Assembly: GCA_903927025.1 (NCBI GenBank)
Contig: CAIYLG010000013.1
Location: forward strand, 62,001-126,000
DNA: 64,000 bases
DNA from: an uncultured Armatimonadota bacterium
Lineage (GTDB): Bacteria > Armatimonadota > Fimbriimonadia > Fimbriimonadales > Fimbriimonadaceae
Reading direction: 5' to 3'
Position 1 is the first letter of the stretch. Each line of letters opens with the position of its first letter. The position numbers were made by a program, and so were the translations under genes. This document shows positions 47,458 through 60,124 of this stretch, in pieces. The notes under the pieces are model-generated. The model was not told the origin of the DNA. It searched no databases and saw nothing but the letters and a program-made list of their open reading frames with translations.

Positions 47458-49404
47458 TTACGGAGTGATCGTCATCTGTACGGAACGAGTCACCGAGTTG
47501 AGAACCGCCGATATCGTAGCCACCACGTTGGCGCTCACCTTGGACGTGGTAATGCTGAACGTTGCGACCTTTGCCCCAGGAGCAACCCTCACGGTGAGGG
47601 GCGTCTTCACGTTCGAATCGCCCGATGACAGGTGGATGGTAAGTCCTCCCGCAGGGGCTGGGCTGGAAATTGCTACGCCGCCTTTTACCGTCCTTCCACC
47701 AACAAACTTGGTTGGAAATACGGTGACAGCGGTTAGAGTTGGGGCTGTGACCTGAAACTTCGCGGTGGCAGATTCCCCATTCAATACCGCCGTTATCGTC
47801 GGCGTGATGTCAGACGGTACCGCTAACGTTGGAATCGTGACCGTAATCAGCTCACGTCCTGGAGGCAGCATGAATTTTGCAGGCGGCTTTACATAAGGAC
47901 TGTTCGAAATCATCGTGAAGACGGCACCGCCATTGGGTGCCGGGGCGCTAAATTCAATGGTGCAGGTGGTAGGTGTACCACCCACCACCTTCGCGGGCTT
48001 GATAAACAGCTTTTGAGGGATCGGATTGGAGAAGACCTTCCAGATCATTCCGACCTTGTTCGCTCCGCCCGCAACGCTTGCGCCGTAGAGATTGCCGAGG
48101 GTGTCAAATGCAACCCCACCTTGGACATTCACCCCGTCCGACCCCTTGACGTTATTGGCGTTTGGCACGGTGCCTCCAAAATCATGAAGGTCTCGATACT
48201 CTAACCAGCGCGAGAGTTCCCAAACAATGCCGCCTAAGCTATTCGGACCCGCGTTGAGTCCACCAGTTGAAGTGGTTCCGAACAGGTTGCCCTGCACGTC
48301 AAAAGTGACTCCGCTGGTGGGATTGGCTCCGTCTGGACCGAAGGTTCCGGTGCTGTTCATGACTTCAACGACACCGAAATCGTAAAGATCTTTATAACCT
48401 CCATCGTTCGTGAACTCCCACACGATTCCCTGTCCATTGGGTCCGCCGAACTGAGCCGTCCCGTAGATGTTCCCCAAATCATCAATCGATACGCCAGACA
48501 CTGGCTGAGTGCCATCGTCGCCCACGGTTAAGTTGGCATTGGTGACTTTCCCGCCAAAGTCGTGGACGTTCCGGTACGACCCCGCCGGCGTGAGCCTCCA
48601 CAGGGTGCCGGCACCATTTGCACCCCCAAACTGGGTCGTGCCGTAAATATTGCCCGCAGAATCAAAATCAACATACACGACCACAGGGCCAAACCCATCT
48701 GCAGCACTTTGTCCGGCGGCATCGATCGCTATCCCTCCAAAATCGTGGAGATCTTTAAACGCTCCAGCGCTTGTTATCTCCCAAAGGATGCCCCCGAAAT
48801 CGTTGGGCTTGGAGTATGGGCCGCCCGCCGTGGTTGTGCCAAAAAGGTTGCCGGCAGCATCAATTGTGATGCCGGATTGCGGCGTCAAACCGTCGGGTCC
48901 GAGAGTTCCGTCCGCGTTTGTAACGCTTGCTCCGCCAAATTCGTGAAGACTCTTATAGTCACCGGAAGGCTTGAGTCGCCATACGATTCCTCCGCCGTAA
49001 GGTCCACCATTTTGGGCGGTCCCGTAGATGTTGCCCGCTTTGTCCAGGGTGACGCCCTGGTGTGGATGGGTGCCATCAATTCCAAGCTTTCCATTTGAGA
49101 GGCTTATGGTTCCGCCGAAAGTGTGAAGCACTCGGTACACGCCACTCTTAGAGATTCTCCACACCGTACCGGTGCCGTTTGAGGTCGCGGAGCCGCCGCT
49201 CGCCGTGGTTCCGTACATGTTTCCAGCAGCGTCAAAGACTACATTTGAGTATGAGTTTTGGCCGTCCGGCCCCATCGTCCCAGCGGGGGCTCCGAAGTCG
49301 TGCAAGTCTGCGTATTTGGGTGCGGTTTGCGCCGGCAGAAGTGTGAAGGCGGCCGCAAAGAGCACTGAAACTGATGACAAGTAAGCTTTTCTAAGTTGTG
49401 GCAC
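47458..49404 (-). CDS. Secreted GloVer-repeat propeller protein with two beta-sandwich repeats
   Basis: A 648-residue secreted protein; GTG start with AGAGGT 5 nt upstream, and a signal peptide cut near PAQTA. Residues ~35-470 hold seven Gloeobacter/Verrucomicrobium-type repeats of the form GNxYGTxxxGGxxGxGxxWxxxxxGxYxxLHDFGG. Seven copies suggest a closed seven-bladed beta-propeller. Two ~93-residue beta-sandwich modules follow (FIKPAKVVGGTPTT..., VFPTKFVGGRTVKG...). The same module type occurs 8 times in the 1160-aa protein and 3 times in the DUF4434-like protein nearby. Probably a surface or extracellular binding protein; no anchor motif is visible. Confidence 0.8.
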   Translation of the reverse strand: MPQLRKAYLSSVSVLFAAAFTLLPAQTAPKYADLHDFGAPAGTMGPDGQNSYSNVVFDAAGNMYGTTASGGSATSNGTGTVWRISKSGVYRVLHTFGGTISLSNGKLGIDGTHPHQGVTLDKAGNIYGTAQNGGPYGGGIVWRLKPSGDYKSLHEFGGASVTNADGTLGPDGLTPQSGITIDAAGNLFGTTTAGGPYSKPNDFGGILWEITSAGAFKDLHDFGGIAIDAAGQSAADGFGPVVVYVDFDSAGNIYGTTQFGGANGAGTLWRLTPAGSYRNVHDFGGKVTNANLTVGDDGTQPVSGVSIDDLGNIYGTAQFGGPNGQGIVWEFTNDGGYKDLYDFGVVEVMNSTGTFGPDGANPTSGVTFDVQGNLFGTTSTGGLNAGPNSLGGIVWELSRWLEYRDLHDFGGTVPNANNVKGSDGVNVQGGVAFDTLGNLYGASVAGGANKVGMIWKVFSNPIPQKLFIKPAKVVGGTPTTCTIEFSAPAPNGGAVFTMISNSPYVKPPAKFMLPPGRELITVTIPTLAVPSDITPTITAVLNGESATAKFQVTAPTLTAVTVFPTKFVGGRTVKGGVAISSPAPAGGLTIHLSSGDSNVKTPLTVRVAPGAKVATFSITTSKVSANVVATISAVLNSVTRSVQMTITP

Positions 49405-49937
49405 TGTTGACCTCTTGAAACAATAGGAACAGGATAGACCGAGCGTGCCCCCGTTTTGCGACTAGTAGTCCAATTGATCCATTAGCAATGTTGCTAGCTA
49501 AGGAGGTTCTAACTTCCACGCCTTCCCCAGGCGTCAGTTTTGCGAGATTTGCATGAGTTTGTTCGCTCATGGACCTACCAGATAATGAATGCCTATTCCT
49601 TCGTCATCGCTTTCCCCGACGAGACAAGCCACTCTTCACTAAGCTGGTCAAGCGTTCGCCCACTCAACTCCTGGCAAATCCTCTTTCTAGGTATTGAATT
49701 GGAACGCCTTGCTTAGCTTTGGCACCAAATTGAGTTTGTAGAGACAGCTTGCCCATTAGAGAAATGCACCCTGACGTCTGATAGCTGTGACGAGCGTGGG
49801 CACGGGCAGAATTTGGATGGGGACGCTTTACGACCGGCTCATAGAATAGCCATCTGACTTATTCGGCGATAACGAGAAGGAGTCAGGATCACCTAAAAGC
49901 ACGGAACGTAGTGACGCTGGCGACTGTTGCTTGCCAA
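49405..49937. other. Non-coding stretch with a palindrome
   Basis: These 533 bp between divergent genes hold no supported gene. TAGCAA-TG-TTGCTA at 49483-49496 is a perfect 14-bp palindrome, about 80 bp upstream of the GloVer gene start. It is a possible operator. No riboswitch or RNA gene is recognisable. Confidence 0.4.
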
Positions 49938-51014
49938 ATGGAAAGGATCCGAATCGCCTCCCTTCTGCTTGTTGCTGGCTTGTTGGGATCCTGTGTTGGC
50001 ACTACGAAGCCGATTGAACAAGTTCGGCGGGTCGCTGTGCGGCCCATTAAAGCGAAGTTGACCCGGAGCCAAGACTCCACTCAGTTCGACGAGGTCAAGT
50101 GTGGAGTCCAAGATGCCGAAGGCAACTTATGGTTTGGCACAACTCGTGAAGGCGTCTACCGCTACGATGGCAAGGGGTTTTCGCAGTTCACCGTCAAAGA
50201 TGGACTGACCAACAACACCGTGTGGTCGATTCTTGCGGACAGAAATGGAAGTGTTTGGTTCGGGACGGACTCGGGCCTATCTCGATGGGATGGAAAATCG
50301 ATCCTGCGGATCCCCATCTCACTGAGACCGCAGAAGGAGCACTCTCCTAGCCATGCTCCTCCGACAGATCCAGCAGTTTGGAGCTCGCGAGAGGACAAAA
50401 ACGGAACCATCTGGATTGGAACTGCAGGTGGGATGCTGTGCCTCAAACATGGAGTGTTATCCATCTTCTTGGACGACACTAAGGTCAAGAATCCCGGTCA
50501 TTTGACCCTAAAGATGGTTGAGGACGTTCATGAAGACGGTAACGGCATTCTCTGGTTTGCATCTGGCATGCCTCCGGGAGAAGAGGGACTTTGTCGTTTC
50601 GATGGCACCACGCTGACCCAGTTGAAACCAGGTGGCGAACGCTGGATACGCACGATCACTGAGAACCCCGAGGGCGTTCTTTGGCTGGGAACTCGTCATG
50701 TGGGAACATGGAAACTCACCGGTTCTCACTTCTCGCAATACTCAAAAGATGCCCATCTAGGAGTGCCCCGACTTGTGGACCGGTCTGGCAATATCTGGTT
50801 TTCGGGCGAGGAGTCCGAGAACGTGATCAACAGCTACACCGGCATATGGCGCTACGACGGAAATACTCTCAAAAACTACACGGTGAAAGATGGCATGGAT
50901 GAGTTATTTGTCTGGTGCATGGTCGAAGACCGGTCCGGCAACATCTGGTTAGGTACCCGGAACATGGGCTTGTACCGGTTCGACGGAAAGTCGTTCAAAT
51001 CTTTCTCAAAATAG
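49938..51014 (+). CDS. Lipoprotein with two-component-regulator-type propeller repeats
   Basis: 358 residues from the ATG at 49938, chosen because it gives a lipoprotein signal with lipobox LLGSC (Cys about residue 19). The rest is a beta-propeller of Reg_prop-type blades: DAEGNLWFGTTREGVYRYDGKGF, DRNGSVWFGTDSGLSRWDGKS, DKNGTIWIGTAGGML, PEGVLWLGT, DRSGNIWLGTRNMGLYRFDGKSF (each under the usual D-xGNxWxGT-xGLxRxDG pattern). These blades are typical of hybrid sensor kinases, but no kinase domain is attached. Probably a membrane-anchored ligand-binding protein of the cell envelope. Confidence 0.8.
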   Translation: MERIRIASLLLVAGLLGSCVGTTKPIEQVRRVAVRPIKAKLTRSQDSTQFDEVKCGVQDAEGNLWFGTTREGVYRYDGKGFSQFTVKDGLTNNTVWSILADRNGSVWFGTDSGLSRWDGKSILRIPISLRPQKEHSPSHAPPTDPAVWSSREDKNGTIWIGTAGGMLCLKHGVLSIFLDDTKVKNPGHLTLKMVEDVHEDGNGILWFASGMPPGEEGLCRFDGTTLTQLKPGGERWIRTITENPEGVLWLGTRHVGTWKLTGSHFSQYSKDAHLGVPRLVDRSGNIWFSGEESENVINSYTGIWRYDGNTLKNYTVKDGMDELFVWCMVEDRSGNIWLGTRNMGLYRFDGKSFKSFSK

Positions 51015-51080
51015 GCAGTGTCAAAGAAGGCGCCCCAAGATCTGGCACGGATGGTCGGGGCCAGTAAAATCGAGCAAGCC

Positions 51081-51305
51081 ATGTCCAAGCCCGAACAAAT
51101 CACCACGCTCGACGCATCTGGTTTCATCTTCTGCCTGGCGAAGGCTCCAGCTGGCCATGAGATGTCGCTGGAAGGAATCGAGCGACATTCAAGCAGGGTC
51201 GGCAAGGTCGTCTACTATCGGATGCACGGAGCAAGGTGGCCCTATGTGATGGTCTACTTGACGTCTGAGGGTCTTGTTACGGATCAAGACGTTATGAGCC
51301 GCTAA
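51081..51305 (+). CDS. Small hypothetical protein
   Basis: A 74-residue soluble protein from the ATG at 51081. An in-frame GTG at 51018 would give 95 residues. The sequence (SGFIFCLAKAPAGHEMSL, VGKVVYYRMHGARWPYVMVYLT) has no recognised family. TAAAAT lies 10 nt before the ATG. It directly follows the propeller lipoprotein gene and may be co-transcribed. Confidence 0.4.
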   Translation: MSKPEQITTLDASGFIFCLAKAPAGHEMSLEGIERHSSRVGKVVYYRMHGARWPYVMVYLTSEGLVTDQDVMSR

Positions 51306-51323
51306 GGACCCAAAAACGCTGAA

Positions 51324-52355
51324 TCACTTTCCGATCTTTAGAAACGGGGGTGCAAGCGGCATTCGTCGGATTCCGCCACCGCCAACTGACACCACCGAAT
51401 TGTTGTCCACGATGGCCAAGTTGGTGATCATCGACATCAGCTCATCCCGATAGCTTCCACTGTTGAACCCGATAGGCGTTCCGTACTTCTGCTGAACTTC
51501 TTCCTGCACTCCAACTTCGGCGCACAAATCGTAGTGATCCCAGCCGGAGTCATCTGAGATGTACGCTCCATAGTCTTGGAGCACATGAAAGAGCTTCTTC
51601 CCGAGTTCAGACCGTATTCCGAGACTGGCGGTCGTCAAATTTGGTTGAAGGGCCAACAGTGCCCCCATCACGAGTTTGGGGTTCTTACCGTGGTAACCGC
51701 TAGGCGCACCGCTATCGGAGCGATCAGCGGGCCATCGGAATCCCTTTACGTCGGCACCGTAATAGAGCTGATCTCCCCAGACGTTTAGCTTTATGGCGTG
51801 TCTGATGGGTCGATTCCCAACCAATTCTCCCTTTCGAATCGATCCACCCAATGTCGAAAGCCCGGACCCCCAGTGAGTGCCGTAGATTCCGGGTCCAAAA
51901 ATATCTTGATCCTCACGCAGCCAGCCTACGAGATGGCCTCCCTCGGCCAACCGGCATGTCGGTTCGAGTTGCTTCACCGTTCTGCCATCTGGCATTAAGA
52001 AGGCAGAACACCCATTCGGTGTCGATCCCTCCTTTGCGTCTGGAATCACCAGAGCGGCAGGCACGTGGAGCTCGCCCAATTTACGCTTAGTGTCACCGGG
52101 CCAACGTTTGTTCCAACTTGATGGCGGAAACACCGGCTCCACGGGATCTGTTGACTTCGTGACGACCAGGTATTCAACGTCCAATCCGATATGCGGGGCT
52201 CCATTCAACCGTGCCGGAACGAAGCGAGCCTCAGACCCAATCGGCGTATTCCAGATCGAATCCACCGCGAAGGGCCACGTCCATGGGTCCCTCTGTGCTT
52301 CCGTACCGGCCCCGGCTGGACTCATCAAACAAAGGCAAATGGCTTGGAGAATCAT
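51324..52355 (-). CDS. Secreted conserved hypothetical protein
   Basis: 343 residues. I place the start at the ATG at 52355 because it forms an ATGA overlap with the preceding 94-codon frame and begins a signal peptide (MILQAICLCLMSPAGAG). In-frame starts at 52367 and 52382 are possible. The mature protein begins DPWTWPFAVDSIWNTPIGS, a recurrent opening in secreted bacterial proteins of unknown role. It has a GGHLVGWL ... GIYGTHWGSGLSTLGGSIRKGEL core (in parts). A glycan-related function is possible but unproven. Confidence 0.6.
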   Translation of the reverse strand: MILQAICLCLMSPAGAGTEAQRDPWTWPFAVDSIWNTPIGSEARFVPARLNGAPHIGLDVEYLVVTKSTDPVEPVFPPSSWNKRWPGDTKRKLGELHVPAALVIPDAKEGSTPNGCSAFLMPDGRTVKQLEPTCRLAEGGHLVGWLREDQDIFGPGIYGTHWGSGLSTLGGSIRKGELVGNRPIRHAIKLNVWGDQLYYGADVKGFRWPADRSDSGAPSGYHGKNPKLVMGALLALQPNLTTASLGIRSELGKKLFHVLQDYGAYISDDSGWDHYDLCAEVGVQEEVQQKYGTPIGFNSGSYRDELMSMITNLAIVDNNSVVSVGGGGIRRMPLAPPFLKIGK

Positions 52356-52636
52356 GATTTCACCCATCGGGCTAGGTCCCACGAGTCGTCGATCACAAAG
52401 ATGAGATCTCTCCGGACACTGGGGTGTAACTCAAAAACTCCTTGAACTGGATCTTTTCCGAAAAGACTTGCCTCGGTCATTAGCCCGCGAGTTGGAGGCA
52501 CAGCAGCGTAGCTGCAGGCGTAGACCTGGATGTTCCAGGTGCAAAAGTAATCGGGAGTCGCGGAGGCGCGATTAGGCACCAGGTTGGGCGCTGATCCCGT
52601 CATCGCGGCACCGACTAAGAATGCTAATCCAATCAT
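52352..52636 (-). CDS. Short secreted protein or truncated glycosidase N-terminus
   Basis: 94 residues with a signal-like N-terminus and the segment ATPDYFCTWNIQVYACSY ... DLIFVIDDSWDL. That pattern resembles the opening of large TIM-barrel glycosidase-like proteins, which continue for several hundred residues after the DDSWD stretch. Here the frame ends shortly after with RWVKS and overlaps the next gene by ATGA. TAGGAT ends 5 nt before the ATG. Either a remnant whose 3' part was lost, or a short coupled gene. The family resemblance is from memory and weak. Confidence 0.4.
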   Translation of the reverse strand: MIGLAFLVGAAMTGSAPNLVPNRASATPDYFCTWNIQVYACSYAAVPPTRGLMTEASLFGKDPVQGVFELHPSVRRDLIFVIDDSWDLARWVKS

Positions 52637-52773
52637 GCCGTATCCTACCCACGCTTCTCCAATTCACCTGAAGACAGCTTTTGATTCTATATCCAGCGGT
52701 CAGGCTGTACGATTTTCTTGCAGCATCGCCCGTACACCAGGCCGCACGCGCAAAAAGATGACAGACGCGAGAT

Positions 52774-53466
52774 CTACGAGGCTCTCATCTTAGTCGGGCC
52801 GTAGAGGTTCCAGTAACTTGCGCAGGCGACGAGCCCCAGTTTCTGGGCGACTGCGAGAGAAGGAGTATTGCTCCAAGATGTGGAGTAGATGGGTGTGCGG
52901 CCAGAAGCTCGGATTGCCGATGCCCATGCGCCGGTGACCAATCCGGCATAGCCGCGACCGCGAAAAACTGTGGCTGTTTCCACTCCTGCCTCTGCACACA
53001 AATCAGACACACGCGCGCAGAAGCAGATGCTTTTCGGCACTCCATCCTCGACAACCGCCATGATCGGCGACCTTTCAGGAAGCTCATCCGCTGTCCAGCC
53101 GTTGAACGAACCTTGGAGGCGTTCGACATTTTCGATCTGGACAGCCGCCTCCAATAGCGGGATGCATGCGGGAAATTCAAATGCAGGCCCCGCATCGAAC
53201 TCGCCGCCGACGATGTTCAAGTACTCCTGAATGTGTTTTGGAGGCCGCCGAAAATCGGAGGTCGGCTCTTCGTCAAGCGCCAATCTCGATACTTCCCTTG
53301 CCTGCTCGTTCCCTAACGCAGAGCCCATGCCCCAAGCACAGCTGTCGGCACGGCGAATGAGAACAAATTCAGGTCCCTGGCTCGGATGAGGTTCACGCGT
53401 CGAGACAATGCGACGTCCATCCAATACGAACAGAGTTTCCAGATGGTCCTGCGCTTGAAGTCTCAT
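52774..53466 (-). CDS. GNAT-like acetyltransferase
   Basis: A 230-residue protein. The C-terminal half carries a GNAT fold: KSICFCARVSDLCAEAGVETA, the acetyl-CoA loop FRGRGYAGLVTGAWASAI (about 170-188), and STSWSNTPSLAVAQKLGL. The N-terminal ~100 residues are less typical, as in two-domain FR47-like proteins. Substrate unknown. The 137-bp region on the far side, 52637-52773, shows nothing certain. Confidence 0.7.
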   Translation of the reverse strand: MRLQAQDHLETLFVLDGRRIVSTREPHPSQGPEFVLIRRADSCAWGMGSALGNEQAREVSRLALDEEPTSDFRRPPKHIQEYLNIVGGEFDAGPAFEFPACIPLLEAAVQIENVERLQGSFNGWTADELPERSPIMAVVEDGVPKSICFCARVSDLCAEAGVETATVFRGRGYAGLVTGAWASAIRASGRTPIYSTSWSNTPSLAVAQKLGLVACASYWNLYGPTKMRAS

Positions 53467-53544
53467 AGTGGATATGTGGACTTAAGCACGATCCACCGTT
53501 CCACACCAACGATTCTGACGTCATCCGAAAACATCTCCCACTTC

Positions 53545-56500
53545 TTAGTTGATCGTCAATACTGCAGATTTGGACGTGCTTTGTAGGGTTGCTGAGATGT
53601 TGGCTGACGTCTTGGCGGTGACCCCAACTGTCTTCACCTTGAAAGTTCCCCGTGTCTTACCGGCAGGAATCGAAACGGTAGCGGGCACGCTCACGGCGGA
53701 CTGGCTACCGGAAAGCGACACCGTCAACCCTCCTGCTGGCGCGACCGAACTTAGCTCCACCACGGCGGTGCCAGACTGGCCGCCCTTCAGCGAGCTTGGG
53801 ATTAGCGTTAGCGAACTCAATTTTGGTGAGGTCACCGAAAGGGCCGCCTGCAGAGATTGACCATTTGCATTCGCCGAGATGGTCGCCGTTGTATCAACAG
53901 CCGTACCTGCCGTCTCAATCTTGAAAGTCGCACTGCTCTGACCCGCCCGAATGGTCACCGATGCGGGAACCGCGGCAGCGGCTGAATTGCTGGATAGTTT
54001 TACGACGAGACCGCCAGCTCCAGCTGGGCCAGATAATTGCACGGTTCCAACTGACGATGTGCCACCAGCCACGGTACTTGGAGCGAGACTGAGCTTCGAC
54101 AGAACAGGGGGCAATACCGTCAGCGTGGTCGACGCCGAATTGGCGCCAAATTTCGCAGTCACGCGAACCGCCTCTTGCGCCGATACCGCGGTCGTTTTAG
54201 CCGCAAAACTCGCGCTTGTCTTGCCGGCCGCAATCGTCACCGAGGCAGGTAGCCGGACGCTTGGTGAGTTGGCGGATAGATTAACGACCAAACCTCTGGT
54301 TGGCGCAGGGGCATTTAGGGTGACGGTTCCCGTAGTGTTTGAGCCACCCGGAACGGTGGCTGGTGCGAGGCTAATCGATGCAAGCCCGACAGGGACAACG
54401 GTGAGAACCGTTGTGACCGGCTTCCCACTCAGACTTGCTGTGATCGTTGACGGTGTCGGAGAGGTAACCGCGGACGTTGTCACCATAAAGGAAGCGCTTG
54501 ACTGGCCCGATGAGATCAACACGGAATTCGGAAGTGAAGCGATTGAATTGCTGGAGCTGAGCCCTATGATCAGTCCGTTGGGGCCGGCAACGCCGCTGAG
54601 CTGGATCGTTCCCGTCGAGGAGGCACCACCAACCACTGAGGACGGGCTAAAATTGACCGACACAAGCGCTGGGGCAGTTATCGTAAGGCTCGCCTGTACG
54701 GAAGCACCGCTCAATGACGCCGTGATCATCGCATTCCTCTGGACAGGAACGCCGACCGTGGCGATCGTAAATGTCGCTGAGACTTGATGCGGAGCAATGG
54801 TCACCGACACCGGTGGAACCGCGGCCGAATTGCTCGCTGACAGGGAAATGATCGTTCCGCTCGCGCCTGCTGGCGCAGTGATCGTGACCGTTCCCGTAGA
54901 CGAGCTGCCCCCACCGACCCTGGTCGGGTTTAGGGTCAGACCTACCAGGGAAAGCGGCGAAAGGATGAGCGTGGCCGCCTGCGAAGTTCCGTTCAAAGTT
55001 GCCGTGATCGCAACCTGCGTCGCTGCCCCAACTACAGTCGTGCTTACGACAAACGTGGCAGACGAAGAACCCGACGCCACAGTGACCGATGATGGGACAG
55101 TTGCCGAGGAGTTATCGCTAGTCAACGAGACAACAACACCACCGGATCCTGCGGCCTTGGTCAACTTAACCGTTCCCGTCGTACTGAGCCCGCCGATCAC
55201 CGTCGATGGATTAAGGGTTATCGCCGCGGTCTGATCTGAAGTGATCACCAGTGCTGTCGACACCGTGGTTCCTGATGCCGCTGCGCTTATCGTGACCGTT
55301 ACGGCTGAAGTAACTTTGGATGTGCCAGCGCGGAACGTTGCCGAAGTTGAGCCCTCAGCAACGGTGACTGATGCAGGTAGGGTGGCAGACGAGGAACTGG
55401 ACCCCAGCGTCACCACCGTACCACCAGCTGGAGCAGGTCGATTGAAGGTGACAGTGCCTGTCGAGCTATTTCCACCGACCACGTTGGAGGGATTTAGACT
55501 CACGCCTGCCAATAGTGGCGCGTTAACGGTTAGGGTCACACTCTGGGATGAAGTACCCAGCGACGCGGTGATCGTCGCGGTCGTAGTTGTGGACACCGAT
55601 GCAGTCTTGGCGAGAAATGTTGCTGACTTTGCGCCGGCCGCCACCGTGACAGACCCAGGCAAGGACACGCTGGCGCTGCTGGAGTTCAGCGCAATCGGAA
55701 TCCCGCCACTTGGAGCGGCGCCGCTGATCGTTATGGTGCCCGTTGCTGAAGCGCCGCCGAGCAGCGTAGTTGGAGTGATTGTCAGGTGGCCAAGAGTCAC
55801 GCCAACAATCCCCCAAATCATCCCACAGTTGGGACCATTCGCTCCCCCATGATAAGTGCAGCCAAACAAGTTTCCAGCCGCATCGATCGTTACCCCGGCC
55901 AACGGATAGGTTCCGTCAGCGCCAGAACCAAATGAGTGCAGGACGGAGTAGTTTCCGTTGGAAAAGGACCACAAAACGCCGCCACTGTTCGCCCCTCCTT
56001 TTGTTGCTGTGCCGTACAGCTTTCCAGAAGGATCGATGGAGACACCTGCATTGGGCTGGCTGCCATCGCCAGACGAGCCGAAGGTGTGGACGAGTTGGTA
56101 GGTGCCAGTTGCCGTAATCTCCCACAACGTGCCTGGACCAGATTCTGATTGCGAACTCGACAAAGTGGTACCGAACAGGTTCCCTGAGCTGTCGAGTGTC
56201 ACGCCTCCAATGGGTCGCGTCCCGTCAGAACCTGCTCCAAAATCGTGCAGATCCAGGTACTTGCCGGACGAAGTAATCTCCCAGACGATTCCCCAGCCAT
56301 TGGCACCTCCGCCATAGGTGGTTCCGTACAGGTTTCCCGAGCCATCGATTGTCACATTAGCCTGGGAACCCGCTCCGTCAGCGCCTGAGCCAAAATCGTG
56401 CAGATCCCGGTACTGGCCCGAGGCAGTAATTTCCCAGACGTTTCCCCCGCCCAAGTTCGCTCCCCAGAAGCCGGTCGTACCATACAGATTCCCATATCGG

Positions 56501-57027
56501 TCGATCGTGACTCCCGCTTCGGGGCCAAGTCCGTCGTTACCGTTATAGAAACTATGGAGAATGAGGTAATTCCCTGACGCAGTGATCTCCCAAACAATGC
56601 CGCCACCGTATGCGCCGCCACCTACGGTTGCACCATACAGGTTCCCAGAACTATCGAGCGTCACTCCCCCCTTGGGATCGTTTCCGTCAGGGATCGTGCC
56701 GTCGTAAGTGCCACCAAATACGTGAAGAACTTGGTAATCACCTGATGCGGAGAGTTTCCAAACTTGGCCAGCTATGTCCGACCCACCGTATAAGGTTGTG
56801 CCGTACATGTTGCCGGCATTGTCCAGGGTCACTCCGGCGTACGGCAGCGTGCCGTCAGTGCCATATCCAAAATCGTGGATGTCTACGTAAGTCTGTCCGA
56901 AGGCAGAGTGTGCCGCAGTCATGGACATTGCCAGCACGAGCAGGCAAAGCCTCAACCTCCTCCGGATTGAAAAATGGACTAAGCGAATTAACCGAACAGA
57001 TGAAAAAAGCATTTTGGAATGACTCAC
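53545..57027 (-). CDS. Large secreted GloVer propeller protein with eight beta-sandwich repeats
   Basis: An 1160-residue secreted protein; GTG start, signal peptide cut near SAFGQ. Residues ~45-405 hold seven GloVer repeats (GNLYGTTYGGGANGWGIVWEIT type), again matching a seven-bladed propeller. From ~408 to the end there are eight ~93-residue repeats of the form LxPSxVxGGxSSTGTVxLxxPAxxGGxVVxLSSxS...PxSVTVAxGxxSATFxxxT...ITAxxxGxSxxAxLTV. They are Ser/Thr/Val/Gly-rich and probably form a stalk of Ig-like domains. The DNA is internally repetitive as a result. No C-terminal anchor is visible. Confidence 0.82.
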   Translation of the reverse strand: MSHSKMLFSSVRLIRLVHFSIRRRLRLCLLVLAMSMTAAHSAFGQTYVDIHDFGYGTDGTLPYAGVTLDNAGNMYGTTLYGGSDIAGQVWKLSASGDYQVLHVFGGTYDGTIPDGNDPKGGVTLDSSGNLYGATVGGGAYGGGIVWEITASGNYLILHSFYNGNDGLGPEAGVTIDRYGNLYGTTGFWGANLGGGNVWEITASGQYRDLHDFGSGADGAGSQANVTIDGSGNLYGTTYGGGANGWGIVWEITSSGKYLDLHDFGAGSDGTRPIGGVTLDSSGNLFGTTLSSSQSESGPGTLWEITATGTYQLVHTFGSSGDGSQPNAGVSIDPSGKLYGTATKGGANSGGVLWSFSNGNYSVLHSFGSGADGTYPLAGVTIDAAGNLFGCTYHGGANGPNCGMIWGIVGVTLGHLTITPTTLLGGASATGTITISGAAPSGGIPIALNSSSASVSLPGSVTVAAGAKSATFLAKTASVSTTTTATITASLGTSSQSVTLTVNAPLLAGVSLNPSNVVGGNSSTGTVTFNRPAPAGGTVVTLGSSSSSATLPASVTVAEGSTSATFRAGTSKVTSAVTVTISAAASGTTVSTALVITSDQTAAITLNPSTVIGGLSTTGTVKLTKAAGSGGVVVSLTSDNSSATVPSSVTVASGSSSATFVVSTTVVGAATQVAITATLNGTSQAATLILSPLSLVGLTLNPTRVGGGSSSTGTVTITAPAGASGTIISLSASNSAAVPPVSVTIAPHQVSATFTIATVGVPVQRNAMITASLSGASVQASLTITAPALVSVNFSPSSVVGGASSTGTIQLSGVAGPNGLIIGLSSSNSIASLPNSVLISSGQSSASFMVTTSAVTSPTPSTITASLSGKPVTTVLTVVPVGLASISLAPATVPGGSNTTGTVTLNAPAPTRGLVVNLSANSPSVRLPASVTIAAGKTSASFAAKTTAVSAQEAVRVTAKFGANSASTTLTVLPPVLSKLSLAPSTVAGGTSSVGTVQLSGPAGAGGLVVKLSSNSAAAAVPASVTIRAGQSSATFKIETAGTAVDTTATISANANGQSLQAALSVTSPKLSSLTLIPSSLKGGQSGTAVVELSSVAPAGGLTVSLSGSQSAVSVPATVSIPAGKTRGTFKVKTVGVTAKTSANISATLQSTSKSAVLTIN

Positions 57028-57457
57028 TGTGGCAAGAGGGATAGTTCAGCTAGCCCACTCCTCGGAGTGTAACACGGGTTTATTGCAATCCCAAATAGTG
57101 AAATTTGGCGCGGACAACAAGCGGACTTTCGCCCCTGTTCTTGACTCTTAAGCAGGATTTATGGCGCAACGGTGATAGCAGCTCCTACAAAAGCATACGT
57201 AAGCCAAGCAATTTCCAGCAGGTGTCCAAGAGTTCCGATTACTTCTCGTGCTTGGTCGATTCCCCATCATCCTCGACAATCGGGCACAAAACAGCCGAGA
57301 TGCTTTCTGAGAAGATCGGGACTCTAGACACAATTCCGCTACCCTGAAACCTTTACCAGGTTTATGTACAGTGCCATTTCGAATTCGGACCAACCGACCA
57401 ACGAAGTAGTGACGGTCCCAGGGCGAACAAGCCTACGGATCACTTCGGTTGGGTCCA
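57028..57457. other. Divergent promoter region
   Basis: These 430 bp lie between two divergent secreted-protein genes. AAACCT-TTACC-AGGTTT (57347-57363) is a short perfect hairpin about 95 bp before the start of the plus-strand gene. I looked for a c-di-GMP or other riboswitch and saw none. Confidence 0.35.
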
Positions 57458-60124
57458 ATGGTAACTCTCCTTTCATCTCTCCTCCTCGGAGCCTCCCTTG
57501 CAGCCTCGTCTGGAGACATGAACGCCACTTCGGTCCCCACCAAGGTGGCTCAGCAAACTCACGGAAAGCGGTCAGTACCACGGTTGCCGGGAGCGAATCA
57601 GCACGTTCGCCAGTGGCCAGGAACATCCGGCGATGGTCGAGTGGGCACACTGAACAGACCGGAAGTCGGAGGGCATCGCAAAGGCTCGGGCAACTCGATC
57701 CCACCTGTCTCAACCGTAACACTCTTGCAGGGTTGGACCGTTCAAAACTACACCGACGCCCAGTGGCAGTCACTGTTCCAGGGACTTGCCAATCAGGGAA
57801 TCAAGAGCGTGGTCTTCGCGTCGTCGGTCGACGAGAACGAAGGAGCCGGTCAAGTTCTCGGAACACCTAACGCTTACCCCGCCGCGACAGCGACAGCTTG
57901 GTACCCAGTCTCCAGCCTCGTCACCACGAGCTATCCCAACGTCTCGTATTCTGGAAATGCGACTGGAGCATCAAGGTCGCCGGTCGATGAGTGTCTCTAC
58001 TACGCCCAACACAACGGTGTGAACAACAGCATGACCGTTTACGTTGGACTCAACTTCTATGCAGACGAATGGGGTTTCCGATCAGGCAACATAAACGGAT
58101 CCGGCTACATTGACCCCATTACCGACTCAAGCTTCTGTGCAAGCGAAGCCAAGTTGGCAACACTGGTCGCCTCGGATCTCAATAACCAATTTGGTGGATA
58201 TTCCAGCTTTGCCGGCTGGTATTGGCCATGGGAAGTTGACAATATCTACTTCGACAAGAACATTGGCGACAGTCAGAACTCTTTCCTGCCAACAGGCTAC
58301 GCCGCATCGGCTTACGCCAATCTGATTTCGATGCTTGAGACGAGCTACTTCCCTCTGTCCGCAAAGCCTCGTCTCATTTCGCCGTTCTTCAATCCGTACT
58401 ATCAGAACACAGTGGCTGAGCTGCCGTATCAAGCCTACACGGCATCGGAATATGGAACGCTGTGGCAACAGATCTTCTCGACGGTGTACCAAGGCTCAAG
58501 CCTCTTCACAAGCAAGGACATTTTCGCACCGCAGGATGGAGCAGGCGACTATCTGCCCCAGATCTCTGGCAGCAGCTCGTTGCAGGGTCCACCTTCCGCT
58601 GCCGCTGTTCAGTCGATCATCAACACCTGGTATCCGCCTCTTCTTCAAGCCGCTGCAAATATATACGGCATGCAGGTTTGGGCCAATGCCGATACGTATC
58701 AAATTGACGTCGAGGCAATTGGAGCTCCGGCAGTTTATGTAGAGAACGATCCCGCATATCCAACTTCTCCGTGGGTCGACGGAGCATTTGTCAGTGCAGG
58801 CATCAGCCGAATCGCCGCCCAGTTTCAGGCGGAAGCATCCGTAACCTATGCAGGGACTTATCGAGTGAGTCAGATCATGAACTGCTCGAACGCATACTAC
58901 GACGATCCAATCGCTGTCTGGTCCAATTCCGCTTGGGGCAGTGCCTGGAAGACTTGGCAGGTCAATCAGTCGGTGGGCCTATCTGGCGCTCCGAGTATCC
59001 CAACTTCCACTGGGCCAACCAATGCCAACGGGCATTGCGCTCTGACGTTAACGGTTGCCTCCAGTCCGAACGGGGTTTGCGGATTCAACATATGGCGAGA
59101 CAGCTACACGGCGGGAACCACGCCCTACGTATGTTGCGAGATCCCCATCTCGTCAGGTTCAGCAACAACGTTCACAGATCCGGACGCCAATTCCAATGTG
59201 GGCAATCACACGTACTACGTTGTTGCTTACGATGTCTTCGGGAATCAATCATCAGTCGCTCAGTTCGCGCATAGCGGAAGCGTTCGCGTCTCGCTGAATA
59301 AGTCTTCAGTTGCCGGCGGTACTTCTCTCACCGGCACAGTGACTCTGGCTTCAGCGGCACCTTCCGGTGGAACCACCTTCTCACTTTCTGCGGATAGCGT
59401 GAACGTAAGCGTGCCGACGACGGTGACAGTTGCACCTGGCTCGACTAAGGTGTCTTTCTCGGTCACCACGACTAGTGTCAGCGCCTCAACGACGGCGAAC
59501 GTGATCGCCTCGACCGGAAATAACACGCAATCGGCGACCTTCACCATCACTGCCGATACGGTTTCGAGCATATCGGTTTCGCCTTCGACAATTTATGGCG
59601 GATCGAACGCAACGGGTTCGGTAACTCTTGGAACGGTTGCCGGTCCACAGGGGATCGTGGTCCACCTGTCGTCAAATACAGCATGCGCCAAAGTGTCTTC
59701 TACCGTCACGGTCGCATCTGGCGCCACCTCCACCACTTTCGTCATCACCACTACCGGCGTCTCTGGCTACACCACAGTTGCCATCGCGGCATCTATCGGC
59801 AGCAGCATCCAGACCCAATACATTGGCGTCGTTCCCGCTGGAGTGTTGAGCGTTTCCCTTTCATCAAATTCGGTCGTGGGTGGAACATCATCAACTGGAA
59901 CGGTAACCCTGAACGGTCTGGCCGGTCCCGGAGGAGAGGTTGTCACCCTGGTATCGAACAGCGGTTTGGCCACCGTCCAAACAACGGTGACGGTTCCTGG
60001 CGGATCCAAGTCCGCCACGTTTAGCCTCAAGACAAATTCTGTCGCGACAACAACGTCCGCGACCATAACGGCAGGAGCCGACTATGTCTATGCCTCTGCT
60101 GTCCTGACGATTCGGCATTCCTAA
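57458..60124 (+). CDS. Secreted DUF4434-like TIM-barrel protein with three beta-sandwich repeats
   Basis: 888 residues from the ATG at 57458 (signal peptide MVTLLSSLLLGASLAASSG). Residues ~85-480 look like a glycoside hydrolase-type barrel of the DUF4434 group (STVTLLQGWTVQNYTDAQWQ, GLANQGIKSVVFASSVDENEG in parts, FAGWYWPWEVDNIYFDKNIG in parts, with acidic residues E and D at the GWYWPWEVD strand as catalytic candidates). A FN3-like link (GFNIWRDSYTAGTTPYVC) covers ~530-600. Three ~93-residue modules, the same type as in the neighbouring GloVer proteins, end the protein. Likely polysaccharide-related; this is inference. Confidence 0.65.
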   Translation: MVTLLSSLLLGASLAASSGDMNATSVPTKVAQQTHGKRSVPRLPGANQHVRQWPGTSGDGRVGTLNRPEVGGHRKGSGNSIPPVSTVTLLQGWTVQNYTDAQWQSLFQGLANQGIKSVVFASSVDENEGAGQVLGTPNAYPAATATAWYPVSSLVTTSYPNVSYSGNATGASRSPVDECLYYAQHNGVNNSMTVYVGLNFYADEWGFRSGNINGSGYIDPITDSSFCASEAKLATLVASDLNNQFGGYSSFAGWYWPWEVDNIYFDKNIGDSQNSFLPTGYAASAYANLISMLETSYFPLSAKPRLISPFFNPYYQNTVAELPYQAYTASEYGTLWQQIFSTVYQGSSLFTSKDIFAPQDGAGDYLPQISGSSSLQGPPSAAAVQSIINTWYPPLLQAAANIYGMQVWANADTYQIDVEAIGAPAVYVENDPAYPTSPWVDGAFVSAGISRIAAQFQAEASVTYAGTYRVSQIMNCSNAYYDDPIAVWSNSAWGSAWKTWQVNQSVGLSGAPSIPTSTGPTNANGHCALTLTVASSPNGVCGFNIWRDSYTAGTTPYVCCEIPISSGSATTFTDPDANSNVGNHTYYVVAYDVFGNQSSVAQFAHSGSVRVSLNKSSVAGGTSLTGTVTLASAAPSGGTTFSLSADSVNVSVPTTVTVAPGSTKVSFSVTTTSVSASTTANVIASTGNNTQSATFTITADTVSSISVSPSTIYGGSNATGSVTLGTVAGPQGIVVHLSSNTACAKVSSTVTVASGATSTTFVITTTGVSGYTTVAIAASIGSSIQTQYIGVVPAGVLSVSLSSNSVVGGTSSTGTVTLNGLAGPGGEVVTLVSNSGLATVQTTVTVPGGSKSATFSLKTNSVATTTSATITAGADYVYASAVLTIRHS

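Follow-up and report, generated by a model that had tools for sequence, protein, structure and literature searches.

Predicted seven-bladed GloVer propellers share a commonly basic-ended Ig-like stalk module with other heads in Armatimonadota

Introduction

Tandem Ig-like stalks, as in the invasins, and propeller heads, as in the integrins, are each well known. In invasin, intimin and FdeC, Ig-like domains of the Big_1 type are stacked into a rod, and the ectodomain of integrin alpha consists of a seven-bladed propeller followed by sandwich domains. A propeller is also joined to a sandwich domain in the archaeal surface-layer protein 1l0q (E 4.6e-10), which combines a tandem YVTN propeller with PKD.

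Here, we describe three neighbouring proteins, A, B and C, encoded in a stretch of 64,000 nucleotides (the window) from an uncultured Armatimonadota bacterium of the family Fimbriimonadaceae, which we take to be a congener of Fimbriimonas ginsengisoli and whose assembly comprises 5.25 Mb in 66 contigs. A and B have seven repeats above the cut-off in common with the GloVer repeat proteins (TIGR03803), but differ from them in the tandem Ig-like stalk that is attached; their propeller fold comes from the model described below. The stalk modules have the predicted fold of the invasin, intimin and FdeC modules and the same stacking into a rod. Unlike in these proteins, no match to Big_1 above the cut-off and no outer-membrane barrel was found, and in most cases the stalk follows the head on its C-terminal side and has a basic end. 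As in integrin alpha, a propeller is followed by sandwich domains, and integrin headpieces match the model of the B head; at about 9% identity this is a resemblance of fold, and common descent is not claimed. From 1l0q the proteins differ in the stalk, which is built from an invasin-type module and not from PKD, and in the propeller family.

Results

The features of the locus are as follows.

47458 to 49404, minus strand: protein A, GloVer head and two modules, 648 residues (open frame, TIGR03803 match, module count)
48031 to 49314, minus strand: predicted propeller head of A, seven GloVer repeats (TIGR03803, 223.3 bits, seven stretches; the profile of B's repeats also gives seven)
47461 to 48015, minus strand: stalk of A, modules A1 and A2, the last one basic with net +7 (module comparison, charge count)
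53545 to 57027, minus strand: protein B, GloVer head and eight modules, 1160 residues (open frame, TIGR03803 match, module count)
55807 to 56889, minus strand: predicted propeller head of B, seven GloVer repeats (TIGR03803, model compared with seven-bladed propellers, repeat profile)
53548 to 55791, minus strand: stalk of B, modules B1 to B8, 94-residue period (module comparison; fold predicted for B2 to B4)
53548 to 53817, minus strand: module B8, basic end module, net +6 (charge count)
57449 to 60124, plus strand: protein C, DUF4434 head and three modules, 891 residues (open frame, Pfam match)
57740 to 58882, plus strand: DUF4434 domain of C (79.1 bits, cut-off 30)
59282 to 60121, plus strand: stalk of C, modules C1 to C3, net +1 each, no basic end (module comparison, charge count)

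The first-pass annotation, made from the DNA letters, had placed the three proteins at these coordinates with two, eight and three module copies, and this was correct. It had put the length of the module at about 93 residues; the spacing is exactly 94 residues throughout. In a whole-genome profile search the module copies of A, B and C had E values of about 1e-26 to 1e-32, which excludes chance. Since copies inside one protein are only 31-48% identical, the window holds no recent module duplicate. In C, DUF4434 (PF14488) lies at residues 98 to 478, and an in-frame ATG at 57458 is a likelier start of this protein than 57449. An inverse autotransporter barrel domain was found in none of the three proteins with Pfam or NCBIfam. 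A phage origin of B and C was rejected, because neither has a match in PHROGs; plasmid records gave a single match, from Gemmatirosa kalamazoonensis, with 37.7% identity over 37% of the query. Between both GloVer genes (49911-51014, plus strand) lies a gene for a lipoprotein-like protein with five Reg_prop propeller stretches (E 4e-28) and without a kinase.

TIGR03803 (GloVer, NCBIfam; cut-off 44) matches A with 223.3 and B with 184.3 bits, in seven stretches each, and the exactly seven repeats that had been read in both proteins are thus confirmed. From this number a closed seven-bladed propeller had been proposed. The B head with two modules was modelled from an alignment of six window sequences (mean pLDDT 79.6); the GloVer protein L053 from Acidobacteria was left out of this alignment due to its misaligned tail. 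The realigned PDB matches of the model were led by CylK (Z 31), with virginiamycin B lyase (Z 30) and the headpieces of integrin alpha (Z 28-30) close behind; all of these are seven-bladed propellers. Judged by these matches (Z 28-31), the GloVer head is predicted to be a seven-bladed propeller, in line with the proposal. Its sequence has no match among PDB sequences. A profile built from the seven repeats of B found seven repeats in all 11 GloVer proteins from the searched stretches, three from this genome and eight from the congener G012, with a weak first repeat in two of the 11.

The model of three stalk modules (B2-B4; alignment of four window sequences) has a pLDDT of 92.5 and consists of separate eight-stranded sandwiches. 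The first Foldseek list was headed by axoneme Ig-like proteins with a large rmsd, and the realigned list (978 chains) was used instead; in this list, FdeC (Z 12.9, 261 residues aligned), intimin (Z 11.5) and invasin (Z 11.0) match the stalk best. According to the model, the module is a bacterial Ig-like sandwich of the invasin/intimin/FdeC type, and its fold is not new. No family in Pfam or NCBIfam matches the module above cut-off, Big_1 (PF02369) stays below it (best match one of 17 modules, E 0.19), and PDB chain sequences gave no match either. Taken together with the predicted fold, this makes the module a sequence family without a model but of known fold. The suggestion that it could be an undescribed domain family therefore holds for the sequence, which no known Ig-like Pfam family covers above cut-off, but not for the fold.

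The family is much larger than the three proteins from which it had been recognised. We counted at least 344 modules in at least 49 ORFs of the genome, 1 to 22 per ORF and mostly spaced by 93-97 residues, in 33 stretches (572 kb) that include the window; this is a lower bound, because the best 150 of 466 candidates from the genome search were scored. Among 20 congeners, the module matches range from 2 to at least 126, and four reach at least 126 (260 to 498 candidates at first look). GloVer is present in 4 of the 20 genomes of the genus, and these are the same four. In a sample of genomes spread over the phylum, module matches were found in 41 of 121. Genome size as the driver of copy number within the genus was rejected (Spearman 0.38, p 0.096, not significant, four of the counts being lower bounds).

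That one module is common to different heads in variable copy number, as had been noted for the three neighbours, holds genome-wide. Grouping of the non-module parts by single-linkage BLAST gave a cluster of 14 ORFs, a cluster of 13 ORFs and the GloVer trio. In the first, four of five scanned members have PQQ-type propellers and the fifth, in L056, matched nothing by itself; in the second, all three scanned members have WD40 propellers. Two ORFs have a sortilin-type and two a kelch propeller. By cluster or by own match, at least 34 of 49 module ORFs carry propeller heads (PQQ-like, WD40, GloVer, kelch, sortilin). Non-propeller heads are a pro-kumamolisin domain (twice), DUF4434, a beta-helix and an RHS-type protein, and 10 of the 49 ORFs are headless or have no assigned head. 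The RHS-type protein, L084:7929-14969 (plus strand, 2347 residues), has nine modules first and the RHS repeat later.

How do such stalks evolve? A protein of the PQQ cluster (L070:11578-14562) and a protein with a kelch head (L071:5557-9567) share two modules with 97% and 94% identity, within a stretch of 1.7 kb with 77.7% DNA identity. Near-identical modules under different heads indicate that stalk blocks move between heads. L070:11578-14562 ends just before the position of the basic last module of L071. On contig C8, four modules of two neighbours, one with and one without a GloVer head, match block by block with 55-67% identity. Of all modules, 14% have their nearest neighbour within their own protein, compared to 2.5% in shuffles. 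Of the two routes raised at the outset, expansion within genes and movement between them, both are thus seen. A headless protein occurs in three congeners with 17 (L083:6372-11351), 20 (L105:2651-8530) and 21 modules (L085:3357-9425) and is possibly a fibre. Between this genome and G012, its first two and its last two modules pair up as reciprocal best matches and keep their order, and most of the middle is scrambled; less module order is left in the comparison with F. ginsengisoli. A C-terminal set of three modules, spaced by 97 and 96 instead of 94 residues, recurs in L059:5167-8436, L066:1791-4628, L071:5557-9567, L086:7671-11357 and others, and is common to proteins with different heads and to several species.

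The stalk reaches the C terminus in most proteins: in 43 of 49 ORFs the last module ends 15 residues or less before the end of the ORF. These 43 terminal modules contain 4.28 lysines and have a net charge of 4.47, as opposed to 1.78 lysines and a net charge of 0.99 in 301 others, and the charge declines over about three modules. The same pattern was seen in G012 (33 terminal modules, net 4.67 versus 0.77 in the others). In F. ginsengisoli it was seen in net charge (nine terminal modules, 3.22 versus 0.45), but the lysines at particular columns that mark the terminal modules of this genome were missing. Among N-terminal-head proteins that have at least three modules, 56 of 61 from four congeners (G000, G012, G004, G019) and 5 of 5 from F. 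ginsengisoli have a last module that is more basic than the average of their other modules. Outside the genus this holds for 14 of 14 proteins from eight genomes, a set in which two pairs look like orthologues from related genomes and from which 8 of 22 frames with modules were left out, because they extend beyond the stalk at the C terminus, show no clear head or have only one or two modules. Heads are acidic, with a mean of -14.8 in 71 proteins. In proteins with a C-terminal head the polarity is reversed: the first modules are the basic ones in 4 of the 5 such proteins that G000 and G012 have (p 0.005) and in 3 of 5 of F. ginsengisoli, the latter not significant (p 0.22). In the window, the stalks end with +6 in B and +7 in A, and C has +1 throughout. 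A basic end is also missing in the reversed RHS-type protein L084 and in several headless proteins, including those with 17, 20 and 21 modules. First modules as a distinct class were tried and rejected (nearest neighbour also a first module in 6%, base 14%). A confinement of basic residues to the module pole that faces the free end has p 0.015 in G000, G012, G004 and G019. In F. ginsengisoli p is 1.0 and 0.71, and as we chose the poles when the positions were already known to us, the confinement is only suggestive.

Discussion

Judged by sequences and models, A, B and most of their relatives are head-on-stalk proteins with a charge polarity, and we suggest the following function. The proteins would first be exported, which is likely from their signal-like N termini (crude signal-peptide patterns in 73% of module ORFs and 40% of other ORFs). 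The N-terminal part would be the working head, the GloVer propeller in A and B and the DUF4434 domain in C, presumably with a ligand of its own. The remainder would form a rod of invasin-type Ig-like 94-residue modules, with a reach that depends on how many there are. The lysine- and arginine-rich modules that most members have at the rod end away from the head would act as an electrostatic foot, which retains the protein on the anionic envelope, with lipopolysaccharide as the probable partner, and the acidic head would be held outward at a distance set by the number of modules. The F. ginsengisoli type strain has type II secretion genes and lipopolysaccharide genes, and no sortase (PMC4072686). 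We give secretion with a basic foot on the envelope an even chance, not more, because of the proteins that do not conform: C, the reversed proteins of F. ginsengisoli, L084 and several headless ones.

Alternatively, the terminal module could be a sorting or secretion signal for an export machine, with its lysines as recognition residues, comparable to the C-terminal domain of type IX substrates. Such a signal would be expected where the stalk reaches the very C terminus, as it does in the 43 ORFs, and it would account for lysines fixed at particular columns of many terminal modules, for example column 9 (the 'VKGG' position), which has lysine in 44% of the terminal modules and in 0% of the others. 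However, proteins with a C-terminal head carry their basic modules at the N terminus and with the lysines at other columns, and in F. ginsengisoli the favoured columns differ as well. This reversal and the shift of the lysines speak for charge rather than for a recognition motif of fixed sequence. Moreover, no known C-terminal sorting family was found above cut-off in eight terminal modules, and none in A, B and C (NCBIfam). The type IX translocon protein SprA had no match in the genome, but control genomes gave none either. We consider a sorting signal unlikely.

The polarity might also be without function and reflect no more than a common ancestry of the terminal modules and a general tendency of proteins to end basic. 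In 41% of cases a terminal module has another terminal module as its nearest neighbour (base 14%), and on the module tree 33 state changes suffice for the 43 terminal modules, compared to a mean of 41 and a minimum of 37 with shuffled labels; terminal modules are therefore partly related by descent and sequence counts are not independent. In non-module proteins, the C-terminal 90 residues have a charge about +1 higher than the 90 before them. But terminal modules remain scattered across the tree, with at least 33 changes for 43 modules (a weak tree of 82 columns), and the effect exceeds that of control proteins: the last 90 residues have a mean of +4.33 in 48 module ORFs and +1.19 in 64 other proteins with a crude signal peptide from the same stretches (p 3e-6). 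Other families of the phylum show it too (14 of 14 proteins), and it turns round in proteins with a C-terminal head. A polarity devoid of function is thus quite improbable. Equally improbable are head-to-foot fibres or a matrix, formed by binding of acidic heads to basic feet in place of single anchoring, for which it would speak that the two ends are oppositely charged whichever of head and stalk comes first, and that fibre-like headless members with 17 to 21 modules exist, but the long headless members lack the basic end and no sequence feature of assembly was found.

If the electrostatic foot is retained as the preferred reading, it is tempting to speculate that Armatimonadota possess a surface anchor that is general and flexible in sequence. 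It would consist of basic Ig-like modules stacked at the free stalk end, C- or N-terminal as the head requires, onto which many heads, mostly propellers, can be swapped, with the kit amplified to hundreds of modules in some lineages and charge replacing anchoring by sortase, lipid or barrel. This generalisation is tentative and, in our estimate, rather doubtful than probable.

In the open-licence literature searched, we recognised no paper on GloVer (TIGR03803) or on the module family. As far as this literature goes, three points are apparently new: that GloVer can be read as a propeller, how large the module family is in Armatimonadota, and that the stalk has a charge polarity. The GloVer repeat gains a predicted fold, that of a seven-bladed propeller, and a large family of Ig-like modules, for which neither Pfam nor NCBIfam has a model, comes into view, with extreme swings in copy number between close relatives. 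The rule of charge polarity suggests a way in which large stalked proteins may be kept on the surface of diderm bacteria that lack sortase, and a cultured type strain, F. ginsengisoli, has the same system.
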